Of a stretch of DNA of 64,000 nucleotides, positions 55,984-64,000 are shown piece after piece (position 1 is the stretch's first letter; each line of letters opens with the position of its first letter). Under the pieces are notes generated by a model, which had not been told where the DNA came from, ran no database searches, and saw only the letters and a list, made by a program, of their open reading frames with translations. A program made the position numbers and the translations under genes. The stretch covers positions 1,505,598 through 1,569,597 of the forward strand of contig NZ_CP114779.1 in assembly GCF_027359375.1 (NCBI RefSeq), read 5' to 3'. Source of the stretch: Prochlorococcus marinus str. MIT 0919. GTDB taxonomy: Bacteria > Cyanobacteriota > Cyanobacteriia > PCC-6307 > Cyanobiaceae.

Positions 55984-57456
55984 TTAGGTATTCAAGGCTG
56001 TTTTAAAGCGTTCCCAAAGTTCACTTGGTTTTTCAAGTCCGACTGAAATTCGCAGAAGGTTTGAGGGTACCCCGCATTCTTCTGCCCATTTTAATTCTTG
56101 GTAATGAGCTAATAGAACGTATGGACATGCCAAGGTGAAATTTGTTCCTAAGCTTGGACCTTTGCAAACTTTTAAAGAATTATAAAATCTTTTTGTTTTT
56201 GCTAAACCTCCGAATAACTCAAGTGAAAGTAGACATCCAAAACCAGCTTTAGGCCGCATAAGAGACTTGAAGTTTGAACAATGTTCTGGATGGAAAACTC
56301 TTTTGACATCAGGGTGGTCTTCAAGATTTCTTTTTAAAACCAAGCAAGAATTGTTTAATTCGTTTATGCGAAGATGTACATCCTTACTAGCCTTTTCAAG
56401 AGCAATTGAGTCTGAATCAGATAGTTCTGCTAGTAAAGAATTAGGAATTGTTTCTTGGAATAGCTGTTTCCATTTCGAATGAGGGCTAATGACCAGAGAC
56501 CCAGCAAGAATGTCACCTCGTCCAGCAAAACTTTTTGTTAATGAACTAAATATTAAATCTGCATAAGGTAATGCATCAATATTTACAGGAGATCCAATAG
56601 TGTCATCAGCAATGACTGGTATACCCCTCTGATGAGCAAGTTTTGATATTAAAGGCAAGTCAACACATTGCAGCATTGGGTTGCTTGGAAGCTCAACTAT
56701 TAATGCCGAGGGCCTTTTTTGGTCAAGTTCTATCTCTAGCTTACAAGGGTCTTTTGTGAGGCTCAGTTCACTACCGTTAAATATTTTTTCAGGAAGTTTT
56801 AAGACGTCAACATAAGGGAAGCCAACTTGAAATGATGCTTTGTTGAAACTCAGTCTATTTAATGCTTCAAGTGCTGTTGTGAGTGCTGCCATCCCTGAAG
56901 GATGAATATGGATTAAGCTCGATTCGCAACCATATATATGTGCTAATCGATTTCGTATTAACTCTCTAGCCCTCTCTCCATCAGAAGCTAAAGGAGACTT
57001 CTCTTGGTTAAGTGCTATCGCAGCCTGCCTTGATGAGGCCCCTAGGCCAGTGTGCTGCCAAAACGCTTTAGCAGTGGGAGTTGTGTGTTCATCAACAATT
57101 AAGCAAAAGAGACCAGATTCTTCTTTTATTGTTATATGCGCATTGGGGGTGACACTTTTGCAATATTGTCTAGCCTTTTTCGCAGTAGGAAGATTCGGGT
57201 AAGGCCAACAAGTATTTTGCGATTGCTCTGATTTGCTTAAAGCTCTATTAGCTATTTGAGCCACTATAGGATTTAACCCAAATCGTGGATAAATAGATTG
57301 TAGAGTTGCCATGCATGCTGGATCGTTTTCCTCATACGCAATAACATCCCTCCAGAGCGGCAAGGCTACAGAGACAGCATGGGGGCTCTGAGGAATTGCT
57401 TTTCCAGTATCTCTGGCCTCCCAGTAGGGGTCTAGTAGCAAATTTCTTTCAGTCAC
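55984..57456 (-). CDS. metB: cystathionine gamma-synthase-like PLP enzyme (490 aa)
   Basis: 490-residue Cys/Met-metabolism PLP enzyme with a long N-terminal region of about 140 residues before the fold-type I core. The core has HIHPSGMAALTTALEAL and the PLP lysine in SSLTKSFAGRGDILAGSLVI. It overlaps the start of the next gene (57453) by 4 bp. It probably makes cystathionine from O-succinyl- or O-acetylhomoserine, but the long N-terminal part sets it apart from ordinary MetB (about 390 aa). Confidence 0.78.
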   Translation of the reverse strand: MTERNLLLDPYWEARDTGKAIPQSPHAVSVALPLWRDVIAYEENDPACMATLQSIYPRFGLNPIVAQIANRALSKSEQSQNTCWPYPNLPTAKKARQYCKSVTPNAHITIKEESGLFCLIVDEHTTPTAKAFWQHTGLGASSRQAAIALNQEKSPLASDGERARELIRNRLAHIYGCESSLIHIHPSGMAALTTALEALNRLSFNKASFQVGFPYVDVLKLPEKIFNGSELSLTKDPCKLEIELDQKRPSALIVELPSNPMLQCVDLPLISKLAHQRGIPVIADDTIGSPVNIDALPYADLIFSSLTKSFAGRGDILAGSLVISPHSKWKQLFQETIPNSLLAELSDSDSIALEKASKDVHLRINELNNSCLVLKRNLEDHPDVKRVFHPEHCSNFKSLMRPKAGFGCLLSLELFGGLAKTKRFYNSLKVCKGPSLGTNFTLACPYVLLAHYQELKWAEECGVPSNLLRISVGLEKPSELWERFKTALNT

Positions 57457-58622
57457 TTCAATTGATTTAAGCCATGCTTTAGATCGTTACTAAGATCGAT
57501 AAAGTCTTCACAGCCAACTGAAAACCTTACAAGAGATTCAGTGATACCTAGGAAATCCTTTGCTTTGTTAGATACGGATGCATGAGTCATGGTCGCCGGA
57601 TGACAGACAAGACTCTCCACTCCACCAAGGCTTTCAGCCATGGTGAAATAGCTAAGACTTTTACAAAATGAGTATGTTTCTGATTGATTGGTTTTAAGCT
57701 TGGCAGTAACAATTGCTCCTCCGAAACGCATTTGTTTTTTTGCTAAATCATATTGAGGATGGCTTGGGTGAAAAGGATATATAATTTCTTCTACTACGGG
57801 ATTTTCTGCCAATTCAGTTGCTAAAGAGAATGCATTCTGCACTTGTTTTTCAAGTCTTAAAGGTAGTGTTTTTACACCTCGAGTGATGAGCCAACAATCA
57901 AAAGGAGAAGATTGAAGACCTAAAGCTTTCTGAGAAAACCTCATTTTTTCAGACCAAGAAGGATCATTGGTACAAACCACGCCTCCTAAAGCATCTGAAT
58001 GACCATTGATGTATTTAGTTGTACTTGTCAAGGACATGGTGGCACCTAAATCCAATGGTTTCTGAATTAGTCCTGTAGCGAATGTGTTATCTACGACTAC
58101 TGGTACGTTGTGCTTTTTAGCAATGCCACAGACCTTTTCAATATCAATTATTTTCAAAAGAGGATTGGTCGGACTCTCAATCCAAATCATGTCTGGGTTA
58201 TGCTCAGTGATTGAATTAATTGAGGCATCTTTGGTAAAGTCAATCCATTGTGTTCTTATGCCAAATTTATTAAAAACTTGTTCAAATAAACGTACTGTAC
58301 ATCCGTATAAGTTCTCTTCACACAGGACAAGGTCTCCTGTCTTAAGTGAGGCAGCCACAGCTGTAACAGCACTAACTCCAGAAGCGAAAACTGTCGAATA
58401 TCTACAATTCTCTAGTGAAGCCAAGATAGACTCCAAGACTCTAAAATTAGGGTTGCCTGATCGGGTGTAGTCGAACCCTCCCGGGTTGCCATGCTCAAAT
58501 GTAGAGCTTTGAAATATCGGAGGCATAACCGTACCAGTCTTTTCAGCGAAGGTTTCGCCATGATGAATCAATTGAGTGCTTATGCCGGCAGTATTATTTT
58601 TGTTTTGATTAGTTGATGCCAC
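57453..58622 (-). CDS. cystathionine beta/gamma-lyase
   Basis: 389-residue Cys/Met-metabolism PLP enzyme of normal length. The N terminus has GISTQLIHHGETFAEKTGTV and PPIFQSSTFE, and the PLP lysine is in SLTSTTKYINGHSDALGG. A ribose/phosphate-binding segment DYTRSGNPN is clear. It could be MetC-like (beta-lyase) or MccB-like (gamma-lyase); the sequence alone does not decide. It is the first gene of this cluster and is translationally coupled to the 490-aa enzyme. Confidence 0.85.
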   Translation of the reverse strand: MASTNQNKNNTAGISTQLIHHGETFAEKTGTVMPPIFQSSTFEHGNPGGFDYTRSGNPNFRVLESILASLENCRYSTVFASGVSAVTAVAASLKTGDLVLCEENLYGCTVRLFEQVFNKFGIRTQWIDFTKDASINSITEHNPDMIWIESPTNPLLKIIDIEKVCGIAKKHNVPVVVDNTFATGLIQKPLDLGATMSLTSTTKYINGHSDALGGVVCTNDPSWSEKMRFSQKALGLQSSPFDCWLITRGVKTLPLRLEKQVQNAFSLATELAENPVVEEIIYPFHPSHPQYDLAKKQMRFGGAIVTAKLKTNQSETYSFCKSLSYFTMAESLGGVESLVCHPATMTHASVSNKAKDFLGITESLVRFSVGCEDFIDLSNDLKHGLNQLK

Positions 58623-58910
58623 TTTAAACAGTCCCCGAATTTCTTCAGCTTAGATAATTCTATGAAATATTTTTCTCTGGAGAATACTTTTGTTTATCTA
58701 AAGACTTTTCGTCATTTAAAACAGAGTTTAATCAGGATATTTTGAATCTTACGTGCCTATAGGCTTACCGCAAAATACAATTGAGGCTTACACAAGATTA
58801 ACTAGAATTCAATCCTTGCTTTAGACGATAAAATGCTTCTTTTTTATGTTATACATCTGAAAGTCTTGTATTACAAAGAGAAATAGTTAACCTAGAGCTT
58901 GCAGCCAGAT

Positions 58911-60956
58911 TTAATTGTTAAGCATGGTTTTTTTCCAGCCTTCTTCTTGAGACCATTCCCACACTCTAGGGTCTCTAAAATGATCTGCTATGCGATCAAA
59001 ATCAGTTTCTTTCATTGATACATACTCTAGCCATCTTTTAATATCTTTAGGCTTTATTGGATCCATTTGATTTACAAGTTTAATACCCTCTTTTCTTGTC
59101 ATTACAGATGATCTTATATCCTTAGATACATGATCAGTACACCTTCCATAGCCAAATTTTATATATTTTAAATAGTCATGAACTCCATTTTCGTGAATAT
59201 CATCTAAGTTTGAACCGGTTCTATAAGTTCTTTCGAAAGGCTCATCTGAAACTTCAAAACCAAACTCTTTTATCATTAATTCAAGATGTTTATTTGAATC
59301 CCATTCAATATAGTGACCTAGGTATATTTGTCTCAGATTTATATCGAAAATTTCTTTATCAGATGGATATTTCCAGGGATTCATATCCTGAATGCTTATA
59401 CCATCTAATCCAACAAAAAAATTCCAATCAAAGCCTCTTCCTGCATGTTCCGTTCTTTCTCTATAGTTCATCTCTGGAAAGTCTTGCATTGAAAACTGAC
59501 CGCATAAATCAGCATACCCATGTTCTCCCCAAAAAATGAGTGGTATTTTTTGTTGTATTGCAATTCGTGGTGCCGTGGTAAATATTCCCATATGTCCGTG
59601 CCAGTTCATATCTCCCATGACAACAAAGGCTAACTTATTTAATTTTTTCAAAATGGATATTGATGGACTGAATATAAGATGATCACAATTAAAACATTCT
59701 CTCATCCTAAGTAGATTTCTCCAACCAACTTTAGAATAATTATTGCCATTATAAGTAACTAAAAGTGGCTTTAACCCTAATTCTTTTATTACATAATAGG
59801 TTTGATAGTAAGAATCTTTACCCCCACTAACAGATACAATGCAGTCGTATTCACTATCGGTCTTACAATTTTTAACTATATCTAAAAGTTGTAGCTTTCT
59901 AGTAGCATAATCTTGCTTTGTAAGACTCCTTTTAGCATCTGAAACCCTGCAACCCATGCATAAACCTTTGTTGTCGAATTGCATTGGAGTTGCACTGAGG
60001 CTTGGATAGAGACACCGTGAGCAGTACTTCACATCTAATCTTAATTGGCCGTCATACTTTTTATGATCAACAAAAGAACCATGGTTAGCTTTTTTAAGTA
60101 ATTTTATACGGGTTGCATGCTCATAATTAGGTTCTCTTTTAATGAATGAACAATCAAGATTCACATTCCGTAATTTATGATCATCCCTAATTAAATTTCT
60201 TTTAATATTGGGATATGAGAGTTCCGTGAAATAGAATATATTAGATGCTGCTAATCCTTTGAATTTATTAGTTTCTAGTGCCTTTGAAAAATGCTCATAT
60301 CTCCCAGGGCCGCTATTAATGATTAAAGGAACAGATAACCCTTGAGGAATTTGAGAAATTATTCGTGGGTCATAGCCATTGCCTGAACCATCTCTATCAA
60401 TAGAGCTTATAAGAATTTCTCCAACCCCTAATTTAGAGACATATTCAATACCCTGATCTATATTAAGACCAGTATTTTGAGTTCCATTTTTATAAAAGAT
60501 ACTTGTATTATTTGAATTATCTGTCCCTATATCTATAGAAGCAACAACTGCTTGGGAGCCAAATTTACTAACTGCTTCTTTAATTACTTCCGGGTTTTCA
60601 AAAAGAGCAGTGTTAACTATGCATTTATCCGCACCGGCTTCAAAAAGATCGTTAAAATCTTCGATTTTTCTTATTCCACCGCCTACAGAAAGGGGGGCAA
60701 AACAAAATGTAGAAGTTAGCCTTACTAAGCCAGTAAAATCTGATTTGCCTATGTTGTGCCATTTGTCTTCTCTGCGGGAATCGAGCACACTGGACAGGCC
60801 TATATTCAAAATCACTATTTCATCTGCATTCCAATCCGACAATCTCTTTACTGTAGGAATTGGGTCTCCTATGGCCTGGTGATATTGAAACAGTTGACTT
60901 CTTACGAGTAAACCATCTTTAATTAGGAGTATTGGGATAAGGCGTTTATAAGTCAA
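58911..60956 (-). CDS. fused HisF-like cyclase and PP-loop N-acetyl sugar amidotransferase
   Basis: 681-residue two-domain protein. Residues 1 to about 250 are a HisF-type TIM barrel (IPILLIKDGLLVRSQLFQYH, LSVGGGIRKIEDFNDL, VASIDIG, EILISSIDRDGSGNGYD). The catalytic Asp11 position is a leucine, while the second aspartate (in SIDIG) is kept. After a linker of about 50 residues, residues 310-681 are a PseA/WbpG-type amidotransferase: a zinc-like CSRCLYP...CMGCR pair, the ATP-binding PP-loop SVSGGKDS near residue 380 and a long C-terminal region. The start is a TTG at 60956, 7 bp from hisH. It probably uses ammonia from the neighbouring glutaminase to amidate a sugar. Confidence 0.85.
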   Translation of the reverse strand: MTYKRLIPILLIKDGLLVRSQLFQYHQAIGDPIPTVKRLSDWNADEIVILNIGLSSVLDSRREDKWHNIGKSDFTGLVRLTSTFCFAPLSVGGGIRKIEDFNDLFEAGADKCIVNTALFENPEVIKEAVSKFGSQAVVASIDIGTDNSNNTSIFYKNGTQNTGLNIDQGIEYVSKLGVGEILISSIDRDGSGNGYDPRIISQIPQGLSVPLIINSGPGRYEHFSKALETNKFKGLAASNIFYFTELSYPNIKRNLIRDDHKLRNVNLDCSFIKREPNYEHATRIKLLKKANHGSFVDHKKYDGQLRLDVKYCSRCLYPSLSATPMQFDNKGLCMGCRVSDAKRSLTKQDYATRKLQLLDIVKNCKTDSEYDCIVSVSGGKDSYYQTYYVIKELGLKPLLVTYNGNNYSKVGWRNLLRMRECFNCDHLIFSPSISILKKLNKLAFVVMGDMNWHGHMGIFTTAPRIAIQQKIPLIFWGEHGYADLCGQFSMQDFPEMNYRERTEHAGRGFDWNFFVGLDGISIQDMNPWKYPSDKEIFDINLRQIYLGHYIEWDSNKHLELMIKEFGFEVSDEPFERTYRTGSNLDDIHENGVHDYLKYIKFGYGRCTDHVSKDIRSSVMTRKEGIKLVNQMDPIKPKDIKRWLEYVSMKETDFDRIADHFRDPRVWEWSQEEGWKKTMLNN

Positions 60957-60963
60957 AATATGT

Positions 60964-61596
60964 TCAATTGGTGAAATAAGAAAAGAAGCTATCTATCAGT
61001 TTTAAGCCAAAATGTTGAGATTTCTCTGGATGAAATTGTACTCCAAGAATTCTACTTTTATAAACTGCAGCTACATAGTCCTTATTACCGTGCTTGAATG
61101 AAGCAGCTACTTCTTCATTGTTTTGTGATGACAAAGCATATGAATGAATATAGTAGAACTCACCATTTAAATTGTTATGCCATGGTTGATAATCTAATTG
61201 ACCCTTTGTATATGTCCAGCCTATATGTGGAACGGTGTCATCTGATTTTCTCAAGTTAACTATTCCACCTTTAAATATACCTAAGCCTTTGGTTTTTTCA
61301 CCACCTTCAATACTCCATTCTGCCATTACTTGCATGCCTAAACATACGCCAATCCCTGGAACACAATTATCAATCATTTCAAATACTAGTCTATCAAGCC
61401 CCTTGTTTTTAATACTTTCCATGCCAGATTTAAAAGCGCCTACGCCAGGTAAAATGAAACCACTATAATTTTTAAAAATTACTTTTTCATAACTATTAAT
61501 TACATCACAATCATAATTTATGAATTCAAGTGCATTTTTTATCGATCCAATATTGCCTATCCCTGTGTGCATTATAACTATTTTTTTACGAGACAT
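60964..61596 (-). CDS. hisH: HisH-like glutamine amidotransferase
   Basis: 210-residue class I glutaminase. The catalytic cysteine is in GVCLGMQVMAEWS, and the His-Glu pair is in GVQFHPEKSQHFG; the N terminus is KKIVIMHTGIGNIGSIKNAL. The family partner HisF makes imidazoleglycerol phosphate in histidine synthesis, but here it precedes the sugar amidotransferase fusion by 7 bp. It therefore most likely supplies ammonia to that protein, like HisH2 in Pseudomonas LPS loci. Confidence 0.9.
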   Translation of the reverse strand: MSRKKIVIMHTGIGNIGSIKNALEFINYDCDVINSYEKVIFKNYSGFILPGVGAFKSGMESIKNKGLDRLVFEMIDNCVPGIGVCLGMQVMAEWSIEGGEKTKGLGIFKGGIVNLRKSDDTVPHIGWTYTKGQLDYQPWHNNLNGEFYYIHSYALSSQNNEEVAASFKHGNKDYVAAVYKSRILGVQFHPEKSQHFGLKLIDSFFSYFTN

Positions 61597-62115
61597 ACTT
61601 TCTATCCCTTGCTATTTAAGACTATTTATTTGATATAAGAATTTTAATCTTTCCAATTTTACAAGATAATCATTCTTCCATTATAACATACCTTCCTAGA
61701 GTAAACGCCCTAATCTTTACTCATTAAAGGTGCATTTGCTTTGATTTAGCAAACGCCATCGGCAATAATTATATCTTAAACCATCAAGTGCTCTTTTTTC
61801 TTTAAGCTTTGCCGACCAGAGATTTGTGGCTAATTTATCATCCCAGCTCATGCTGGTAGTTTTTTATTCCCTTAACTAACCACTTATTCCATCGAATTAA
61901 AAGCATTTTTTCAAACTTGGCATTGCTTGCCAGTATTAAGAAATATCAAATCACCAAAGTGATAATTCATTTTTTCATTGAACCTTGCTAGACGAAATTA
62001 TAATTGAGCAACTATAATAAACTTATACCATGAGTCTTATGAATGCTCTAAGTATTTATAAGTATGTTTCATGCCTTGAGAGGCATATGTAGCAATTTCA
62101 TCTTTTAATAATTAA
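61597..62115. other. divergent intergenic region of the surface-sugar locus
   Basis: 519 bp separate the minus-strand hisH gene from the plus-strand dehydratase. It holds a 44-codon minus-strand ORF at 61717-61851 and presumably the divergent promoters. A short stem-loop ATGCCT-TGAG-AGGCAT occurs near 62069. No further gene was recognised. Confidence 0.5.
61717..61851 (-). CDS. possible small protein (44 aa)
   Basis: An ATG-initiated frame encoding MSWDDKLATNLWSAKLKEKR and then ALDGLRYNYCRWRLLN plus a short tail. The composition is basic with tryptophans and could be a real small protein. No clear ribosome binding site precedes it. It could equally be a chance frame. Confidence 0.35.
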   Translation of the reverse strand: MSWDDKLATNLWSAKLKEKRALDGLRYNYCRWRLLNQSKCTFNE

Positions 62116-63117
62116 ATGTTCTCAGATTCAATCATATTAGTTACAGGGGCCACAGGGTCGTTTGGGAATACATTCATACCTATGACTTTGAAAAAATATA
62201 ACCCTAGGAAACTAATCGTTTTTTCGCGAGATGAGATGAAGCAATGGGAAATGGCTAAAAAGTTTGAAGGGGATAAGCGTATAAGGTTTTTTATAGGAGA
62301 TGTTAGAGATAAAGACAGGGTTCATAGAGCTTTGGACGGAGTTGACTATGTAGTTCATGCAGCCGCGACTAAAATAGTCCCAACTGCAGAATATAATCCT
62401 TTTGAATGTATCAAAACAAATATTAATGGTGCCATGAATATAATAGACGCATCAATTGACCAAGGAGTTAAGCAAGTTGTTGCGTTATCTACAGATAAAG
62501 CAAGTAGTCCTATTAATTTATACGGAGCAACAAAATTGGCCTCCGATAAACTATTTGTAGCAAGTAATTCATCTTACGCTAGTGGACATCAAACAAGGTT
62601 TGCTGTTGTTAGGTATGGAAATGTTATGGGCTCCAGAGGATCCATTATTCCTTTTTTTATGTCGATAAGAAGTAAGGGTTTTATTCCAATTACTGATACT
62701 AGAATGACTAGATTCATGATTTCTCTCGAACAAGGAGTTGAGTTGGTATGGAAAGCATTTGAAGATATGGTTGGCGGGGAAATATATGTAAGGAAAATAC
62801 CTTCTATGAAAATTATTGATATAGCAAAGGCCATAGCTCCAGATGCTAAACAAAAAATTACTGGGATACGACCAGGCGAAAAGTTGCATGAGCAAATGAT
62901 AGGAATTGAAGATAATCCATATACTTATGAATATTCTGATTACTTTAAAATATTGCCCCAAATAAATGATTGGGGTAATGATTCTGATAGGATTCAATCA
63001 GGTAAAAAAGTTGAAGATGGCTTTGTTTATTCAAGTGATACTAATAAAGAATGGATGGATCAAGACAAACTTTTATCCTGGATTGAAAAAAATAAGGGAA
63101 ACATCATTAAATTTTGA
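62116..63117 (+). CDS. pseB: UDP-N-acetylglucosamine 4,6-dehydratase (inverting), PseB-type
   Basis: First step of pseudaminic acid synthesis: an NADP-dependent SDR that makes UDP-4-keto-6-deoxy-L-AltNAc. The N-terminal nucleotide motif is LVTGATGSFGNTFIP; DVRDKDRVHRALDGVDYVVH-AAA, STDKASSPINLYGATKLASD (YxxxK, catalytic) and PGEKLHEQMIGIED are present. The 333-aa length is normal for PseB. Its stop overlaps the start of the aminotransferase gene by one base, so the two are translationally coupled. Confidence 0.88.
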   Translation: MFSDSIILVTGATGSFGNTFIPMTLKKYNPRKLIVFSRDEMKQWEMAKKFEGDKRIRFFIGDVRDKDRVHRALDGVDYVVHAAATKIVPTAEYNPFECIKTNINGAMNIIDASIDQGVKQVVALSTDKASSPINLYGATKLASDKLFVASNSSYASGHQTRFAVVRYGNVMGSRGSIIPFFMSIRSKGFIPITDTRMTRFMISLEQGVELVWKAFEDMVGGEIYVRKIPSMKIIDIAKAIAPDAKQKITGIRPGEKLHEQMIGIEDNPYTYEYSDYFKILPQINDWGNDSDRIQSGKKVEDGFVYSSDTNKEWMDQDKLLSWIEKNKGNIIKF

Positions 63118-64000
63118 TGATACCTTACGGAAGACAAAATATATCTGATGATGATATTAATGAAGTTATTAATGTATTAAAATCTGATTATTTAACACAA
63201 GGCCCTAGTGTCAATAAATTTGAAAATGATGTTAGACAATATGTTGGTTCTAAATATGCAATCGCGGCCAATAGTGCAACCAGTTGCCTTCACCTAGGTT
63301 GCAAGGCATTAGGTTTAGGGAAAGGAGATTGGCTTTGGACCAGTCCAAATAGCTTTGTTGCGAGTGCAAATGCTGCATTATATTGTGGTGCCAAGGTAGA
63401 CTTTGTAGATATTGATGAGGATACATATAATATTTCGATTGCCAAGTTAGAAAAGAAGCTTGTTGACGCCAAAAGAAAAAATAATCTTCCAAAAGTTATT
63501 ATGCCAGTCCATTTTGCAGGCCAAAGTTGTGATATGTATAAGATATATAAGTTATCTAAAGAGTTTAAATTTCATATTATAGAAGATGCATCCCATGCTA
63601 TAGGCGGTAAATATAATGGGAAAAAAATTGGCTGCTGTAGGTATAGTGATGTTACAGTATTTAGTTTTCACCCAGTTAAAATAATCACCACTGGAGAAGG
63701 TGGTGTCGCATTAACTAATGACAAGTTAATTGCCAACAAGATTCGGATGGAAAGGAGTCATGGTATCCAAAGGATTGATAGTTCTTTCGATCTTTCTAGG
63801 ATGAAAAGAAATGATGAAATATGGAATTACGAACAAGTCTCTTTGGGATATAATTATAGGATAACAGATATACAAGCATCCCTTGGCTCTAGTCAGTTAA
63901 AGAGGATTGATGATTTTATTCATATACGACATAGAATAGCTGAACTATATAACAAAGATTTGTCTGGCTTAAGTATAAAACTTCCTTATCAATCTACATC
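63117..64000 (+). CDS. pseC: PseC-type UDP-sugar 4-aminotransferase (runs off right edge)
   Basis: The frame is open to the right edge and encodes about 294 residues. It starts MIPYGRQNISDDDINEVINV, has the PLP region ANSATSCLHLG and the active-site lysine in FSFHPVKIITTGEGGVALTN. It is a DegT/DnrJ/EryC1/StrS-family aminotransferase and, after PseB, probably installs the 4-amino group of the pseudaminic acid precursor. The start ATG at 63117 overlaps the pseB stop. The C-terminal part lies outside the window. Confidence 0.87.
   Translation, partial: MIPYGRQNISDDDINEVINVLKSDYLTQGPSVNKFENDVRQYVGSKYAIAANSATSCLHLGCKALGLGKGDWLWTSPNSFVASANAALYCGAKVDFVDIDEDTYNISIAKLEKKLVDAKRKNNLPKVIMPVHFAGQSCDMYKIYKLSKEFKFHIIEDASHAIGGKYNGKKIGCCRYSDVTVFSFHPVKIITTGEGGVALTNDKLIANKIRMERSHGIQRIDSSFDLSRMKRNDEIWNYEQVSLGYNYRITDIQASLGSSQLKRIDDFIHIRHRIAELYNKDLSGLSIKLPYQST

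Follow-up and report, generated by a model that had tools for sequence, protein, structure and literature searches.

A 681-aa open reading frame in the window, the whole 64,000-nucleotide stretch of Prochlorococcus marinus str. MIT 0919 DNA analyzed here, joins a HisF-like barrel to an N-acetyl sugar amidotransferase (NASAT) domain, and is a widely distributed fused variant of the known WbpG/HisH2/HisF2 enzyme system. On the basis of sequence comparison and a predicted structure, we consider it probable (roughly 0.7) that the fusion, fed by the adjoining glutaminase HisH, carries out a channeled, ATP-dependent amidation of a pseudaminic-type sugar. HisH would hydrolyze glutamine to ammonia, which would cross the HisF-like barrel, by now no longer a cyclase but with its gate kept, toward the PP-loop domain. 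This domain would use ATP, presumably converting it to AMP and PPi, to activate the N-acyl carbonyl of the sugar, and the ammonia would replace the carbonyl oxygen, resulting in an amidine. The sugar would be a pseudaminic-acid-type nonulosonate or its nucleotide-sugar precursor, bound for the cell surface. The reading as an amidotransferase with an ammonia channel fits the PP-loop, the tetracysteine, the gate residues, and the adjoining glutaminase, and from it we infer the reaction, the interdomain tunnel, the substrate, and the final glycan. In the consulted parts of the literature, no test of the ammonia route from HisH2/HisF2 to a PP-loop sugar amidotransferase was found. A natural single-chain version, with the two parts in a fixed 1:1 ratio, would be a tractable protein for structural and channel work, and under the proposed reaction a Prochlorococcus-like cyanobacterium would contain a nonulosonate bearing an amidine, a prediction open to a search by mass spectrometry.

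Architecture of the fused protein

In Pseudomonas aeruginosa, WbpG, HisH2, and HisF2 are three separate proteins. A sequence-only reading of the window had placed the HisF-like and amidotransferase parts in one polypeptide with HisH adjoining, and this is confirmed by the open reading frame together with a profile search for each domain. A frameshift splitting the fusion, which that reading had named as evidence against itself, is not present; the frame is single and intact, with 0 internal stops. Its start codon, TTG in the list of open reading frames, aligns with the ATG start of the 61%-identical orthologue in genome G295 (locus L039) and is thereby supported. The features discussed here are as follows.

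58911..60956, minus strand: fusion gene, 681 aa, HisF-like barrel, linker, and N-acetyl sugar amidotransferase
60186..60956, minus strand: HisF-like barrel, residues 1-257, from profile match, fold match, and alignment
60033..60185, minus strand: interdomain linker, residues 258-308, with an R-E-P-x-Y motif at residues 274-278
58914..60032, minus strand: WbuX/NASAT domain, residues 309-681, from TIGR03573 and structure match
59811..59828, minus strand: PP-loop SGGKDS, residues 377-382, invariant in 26/26 fused open reading frames
59949..60023, minus strand: tetracysteine motif C312, C315, C333, and C336, invariant in 26/26 fused open reading frames
60964..61596, minus strand: HisH-like glutaminase, 210 aa, with GVCLG and HPEKS motifs
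62116..63117, plus strand: PseB, UDP-GlcNAc 4,6-dehydratase (inverting), TIGR03589 at 520.5 bits, cut-off 407.75
63117..64000, plus strand: PseC aminotransferase, truncated where the window ends; the full gene, at L171:715-1887, matches TIGR03588 at 507.7 bits, cut-off 423.5

The C-terminal domain is matched by the WbuX model TIGR03573 over its NCBIfam cut-off (303.5 versus 203.2 bits, residues 309-657) and carries both the SGGXDS PP-loop and the CXXC...CXXC tetracysteine by which, along with the reaction, NASATs are defined in the consulted part of PMC10607449. The same part of that source describes the roles of WbpG in DManNAc3NAmA and of WbuX in L-FucNAm of E. coli O145, assigns the tetracysteine of the Legionella enzyme LpNASAT to a zinc site, and presents the structure of that enzyme (8WEX) as a first. 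The best NCBIfam model for the barrel is WbuZ (TIGR03572), at 199.9 bits against a cut-off of 299.7; lying 100 bits under this equivalog cut-off, the barrel is named HisF2/WbuZ-like here rather than a WbuZ member. The models for AglZ/HisF2 (NF038364, 184.2 bits, cut-off 310) and HisF (TIGR00735, 175.7 bits, cut-off 294.55) also score below their equivalog cut-offs, and all the HisF-like NCBIfam matches fall within residues 1-260. Pfam reports His_biosynth alone (residues 5-246), and the solved relatives found by sequence are HisF/HisA-type barrels and 8WEX.

An AlphaFold2 model built from 46 sequences has a mean pLDDT of 91.8 and a pTM of 0.91, and in the linker region (261-310), averages over blocks of ten residues are at pLDDT 72-89. 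When compared with solved structures (Foldseek, VIA-align), its C-terminal part superposes on 8wex_A with a Z of 38.2 and an rmsd of 2.5 over 349 aligned residues, and its N-terminal part on HisF (1gpw_A) with a Z of 33.0 and an rmsd of 2.2 over 250. The high pTM suggests that the two predicted domains are held in a fixed arrangement.

Several known systems resemble the fusion in part. The WbpG/HisH2/HisF2 system of the P. aeruginosa B-band O-antigen provides the same three functions, amidotransferase, HisF-like barrel, and glutaminase, whereas the fusion has the first two in one chain and nearby sugar genes of the Pse type. WbuX/WbuZ systems share with it a WbuX match over cut-off and WbuZ as the best barrel model, but here the two are fused, the barrel lies below the WbuZ cut-off, and the sugar context is another one. 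LpNASAT agrees in the C-terminal fold, the PP-loop, and the tetracysteine, but has no fused barrel.

Neighboring sugar genes and the likely substrate

PseB is transcribed divergently from the fusion, on the opposite strand, and 519 bp separate its start from HisH. Elsewhere in the genome, a stretch at C1:610.9-613.7 kb encodes PseF (285.7 bits, cut-off 205.7) and PseI (482.5 bits, cut-off 340.25), such that PseB, PseC, PseF, and PseI all score over cut-off in the same genome; with its continuation to 615.9 kb, the region holds genes for PseF, a 143-aa protein, PseI, a formyltransferase-like protein, a PIG-L protein, and a PseH-like protein. The standard pseudaminic acid pathway is incomplete by these models, since no match to the PseG model TIGR03590 was found in this genome at an E-value of 0.001 and the PseH-like protein scores 72.0 bits against a cut-off of 93.1. 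In locus L089, from a record labeled uncultured Prochlorococcus, the gene order is HisH, fusion, PseB, PseC, PseF, the 143-aa protein, and PseI, followed in reverse orientation by the formyltransferase-like, PIG-L, and PseH-like genes (the last at 64.4 bits, under cut-off).

Clustering of neighboring proteins places PseB-like genes in at least six and NeuB/PseI-like genes in at least five of the 26 fused loci, counts that are lower bounds because five neighbor sets have short flanks (L061, L060, L059, and L039 among them) and that come from single-linkage clusters, which may join unlike proteins. When scored with the family models, PseB is over cut-off in all six (the window, L078, L083, L084, L086, and L089), and PseI is so in L084 and L089. 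It falls short in L086 (328.0 versus 340.25 bits) and in L083 (305.0 bits, where the gene is cut by the locus end), and the synthase of L078 scores higher with the NeuB model (360.3 bits) than with that of PseI (310.2 bits), both under cut-off. PseG is present over cut-off in L084 (222.7 bits).

The alternative with the best prospects, though we judge it unlikely, keeps the chemistry and changes the substrate to a different nonulosonate or a 2-acetamido hexose. It draws on the lack of a PseG match and on a second NeuB-family synthase (L160:12881-13882) with a cytidylyltransferase in the same genome, on the G295 fusion, whose nearby NeuB-family frame stays under both the NeuB (241.1 bits) and the PseI (209.1 bits) cut-offs, and on the many fused genes found in other contexts. 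In particular, a cluster represented by a methyltransferase (c2) occurs in 14/26 fused loci, one represented by a DUF4910 protein (c3) in 10/26, and one that looks AsnB-like by eye (c4) in 8/26. Against it stand the divergent arrangement of the fusion and HisH with PseB and PseC in the window, and locus L089, which unites the fusion, HisH, PseB, PseC, PseF, and PseI and in which the five Pse-type models, where scanned, exceed their cut-offs. Here, the substrate is more likely to be a nonulosonate of the pseudaminic type, or a precursor of one, than ManNAc3NAmA. Since many of the other fused genes have methyltransferase, DUF4910, and AsnB-like neighbors, different lineages may amidate different substrates, and the sugar probably varies among those that carry the fusion.

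With respect to the individual neighbors, the 143-aa protein (L160:15154-15585) adjoins PseI, recurs by clustering in L089 and L086, and has no NCBIfam match; it might stand in for the missing PseG or carry out an acyl transfer. The formyltransferase-like and PIG-L deacetylase genes lie beside PseI at L160:16746-17989, as they do in L089, and the pair could swap an N-acetyl for an N-formyl group before amidation. Fused loci such as L080, L088, L090, and L079, among others, are of another kind and carry a methyltransferase with an N-terminal Cys-rich region, together with DUF4910 and AsnB-like genes, and some fused loci of the DUF4910/AsnB type carry a second, distant WbuX.

Ammonia supply and the altered barrel

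HisH lies 7 bp upstream of the fusion on the same strand and matches TIGR01855 at 176.4 bits (cut-off 105.4), a model that does not tell histidine HisH from sugar-amidation HisH; both catalytic motifs are present. In 24/26 fused loci, HisH shares the strand of the fusion and lies no more than 100 bp upstream of it, the exceptions being L061, which ends at a contig edge, and L082, in which HisH lies downstream and on the opposite strand. The Cys motif is found in 25/25 of the HisH proteins beside fusions, and HPEKS in 24/25 (absent in L076).

Residues R5, E46, K99, and E167 form the ammonia gate of HisF. They correspond to R5, E46, K111 (for K99), and E180 (for E167) in the fusion barrel, and the equivalents are present in 25/25, 26/26, 26/26, and 26/26 of the fused rows, respectively. 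A scaffold or an allosteric activator of HisH is what the barrel would otherwise be, with ammonia reaching the PP-loop via the bulk solvent, an improbable arrangement in our view. It would suit distant rows (e.g., L148-L152), which have WbuX with no HisF or HisH match in the fetched DNA, but unfused HisF2 proteins conserve the gate equivalents just as the fused ones do, and HisH keeps its place next to the fusion in nearly every locus, as counted above.

The barrel differs from canonical HisF at the cyclase site. The aspartate fD11 of HisF is catalytically essential according to the consulted part of PMC8115485, which mentions neither K99 nor the gate. At this position, the window and all fused rows with a letter have Leu (25/25, L061 starting at the contig edge and hence having no residue 11), 6/6 canonical HisF proteins have Asp, and Asp is absent from the 55 unfused HisF2-type rows with a letter, counts that leave out L029, whose barrel is trimmed at residue 56. 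Single chains of HisF2 and HisH2 from the same family keep Asp11, indicating that its loss is not general to HisF2-type proteins. In addition, 13 barrel positions show one residue in at least 92% of the fused rows that none of the six canonical HisF proteins has; two of them, Thr35 and Tyr248, never change across the 26 fused rows but vary in 58 unfused HisF2 rows. The fusion shares with the HisF-HisH imidazole glycerol phosphate synthase (1gpw) the barrel fold, the gate equivalents, and a glutaminase partner, but has lost the cyclase acid. It also differs from yeast HIS7, in which, according to the consulted part of PMC8115485, the barrel is joined to the glutaminase, whereas here it is joined to the acceptor enzyme.

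A role in histidine synthesis, which the sequence-only reading had named as what would speak against it, is suggested by the HisF and HisH homology but has next to no chance of being correct, given that the genome has a separate hisF (L004:18848-19624) and a second hisH (C1:521174) that at 203.9 bits outscores the fusion-adjoining one, and that the essential Asp11 has become Leu.

The proposed channeled amidation can be tentatively carried further, into a picture that we find conceivable and would rate somewhat below even odds. The dead cyclase barrel would be kept as a pipe and docked rigidly on the PP-loop pocket via the conserved linker, so that a single chain would contain the whole route from the side of the glutaminase to the amide activated by ATP, and in picocyanobacteria, the fusion would work with the deacetylase-like and formyltransferase-like genes by PseI. 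The product could then be an unreported amidino- or even formamidino-pseudaminic acid carried by an abundant marine phototroph.

Distribution, origin, and genomic setting

The searches covered 60 relatives, 400 family genomes (E-values up to 1e-40), and 388 class genomes (E-values up to 1e-45), sets that overlap and include the genome of the window itself. No match spanning the two domains in a single frame was found in the other 59 relatives; such matches came from G295 (61% identity) in the family search and from G539, G651, and G644 (49-50% identity) in the class search. From a scan of genome_contigs, the analysis took the best 80 of 81 loci, so that prevalence is given as a lower bound. 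Open reading frames and domains were then compared in 94 loci, made up of these 80, the window, and 13 earlier loci chosen from 74, the other 61 being one-domain matches or stretches of the same genome.

At least 26 fused open reading frames are present among the 94 loci, 21 from the 80 scan loci plus L039, L059, L060, L061, and the window, which bears out the earlier guess that related fusions exist in databases. They represent 25 distinct proteins, as L075 and L099 are identical (two records, both kept); L040 and L094 likewise have identical domains. The records of the 21 are labeled Pseudomonadota (10), Myxococcota (3), Cyanobacteriota (2), Thermodesulfobacteriota (2), Actinomycetota (2), Fidelibacterota (1), and Armatimonadota (1), at least seven phyla in total, though single phylum labels may be wrong because most of the records are metagenome-assembled genomes. 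Three candidates were dropped: G319 (L040) and G367 (L057), which have stops and a stop, respectively, between the domains, and G320 (L046), a long frame that comprises separate genes.

The domain order is the same in all 26 fused frames, and the linker measures 48-57 aa in 26/26, with R274, E275, P276, and Y278 each present in 25/26. That 25 other frames share this order and linker length argues against both chance and error. A sequencing or assembly artifact, or a decaying gene, might be suspected on a flexible low-GC island such as the one described below, but with 25 other fused frames with a similar linker and 137 invariant alignment columns across the 26, the idea can practically be set aside.

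The fused architecture apparently has a single origin, judging from trees of the two domains, both of them quick searches run with no bootstrap. In the tree of 100 WbuX domains, a branch with an SH-aLRT of 99 separates the 26 fused rows from all the others; one change suffices, and 0/500 shuffles need as few. The HisF tree (90 rows) requires two changes, but holding the fused rows together gives a tree that is 45 log units better, missed by the free search, with a p-AU of 0.94; one origin is therefore not rejected. The rows leave out L055 and L074, which repeat L040 and L062, and include only domain hits above 60 bits, WbuX segments longer than 250 aa that score above 130 bits, and HisF segments longer than 180 aa.

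Mobile elements were also searched. A phage origin was dropped, as the 13 matching phage records match the barrel part only and 0 cover 80% of the fusion. A scan of viral_contigs with a two-sequence alignment found no relative; a scan of genome_contigs with that alignment was equally blank, its patterns coming from a part that varies outside those two sequences. A plasmid-borne fusion was likewise dropped, since the query is covered to 80% or more by 6/88 matching plasmid records, all six of which do so with separately annotated genes. In line with the earlier remark that no published description was known, none of a HisF-WbuX fusion was found by title or abstract among the open-access literature matches listed, nor in the consulted parts of PMC13329287, PMC11340318, and PMC8305728.

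In the window genome, the fusion sits on an island that spans positions 58623-64000 of the window and L004:1-2985, between a cystathionine gamma-synthase-like gene and rpsD. These two flanking genes are 7.8 kb apart here versus 114-126 bp between the matches in G001 and G002, genomes of the same genus that have no island. The GC content of the island is 0.337 in the window part and 0.309 in the far part, against 0.398 and 0.389 in the flanks. The four other relatives examined (G003, G012, G013, and G018) have other genes at this position, and from these comparisons the site is a variable insertion site. A tRNA-flanked island was considered and dropped, no tRNA being found at 56000-64000 of the window or at L004:1-5000. 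The far end of the island encodes a 619-aa protein (L004:994-2853) with no match in NCBIfam (E-value 1e-5) or Pfam (E-value 0.001).

A different fusion occurs within the Cyanobiaceae. Single HisF-HisH chains (L029:2697-4110 and L167-L170; genomes G021, G002, G019, G016, and G009) are open frames of 481-501 aa that lie beside WbuX matches in frames of 457-497 aa. Like the HisF-WbuX fusion, they combine components of a likely sugar-amidation system in one chain, but their barrel is joined to HisH rather than to WbuX. By eye, Asp11 is kept in these chains ('RLDVKG' or 'RLDIKG') and the D130 position is Gln ('QAR') in 5/5, a residue pattern that is the reverse of that in the HisF-WbuX fusion.
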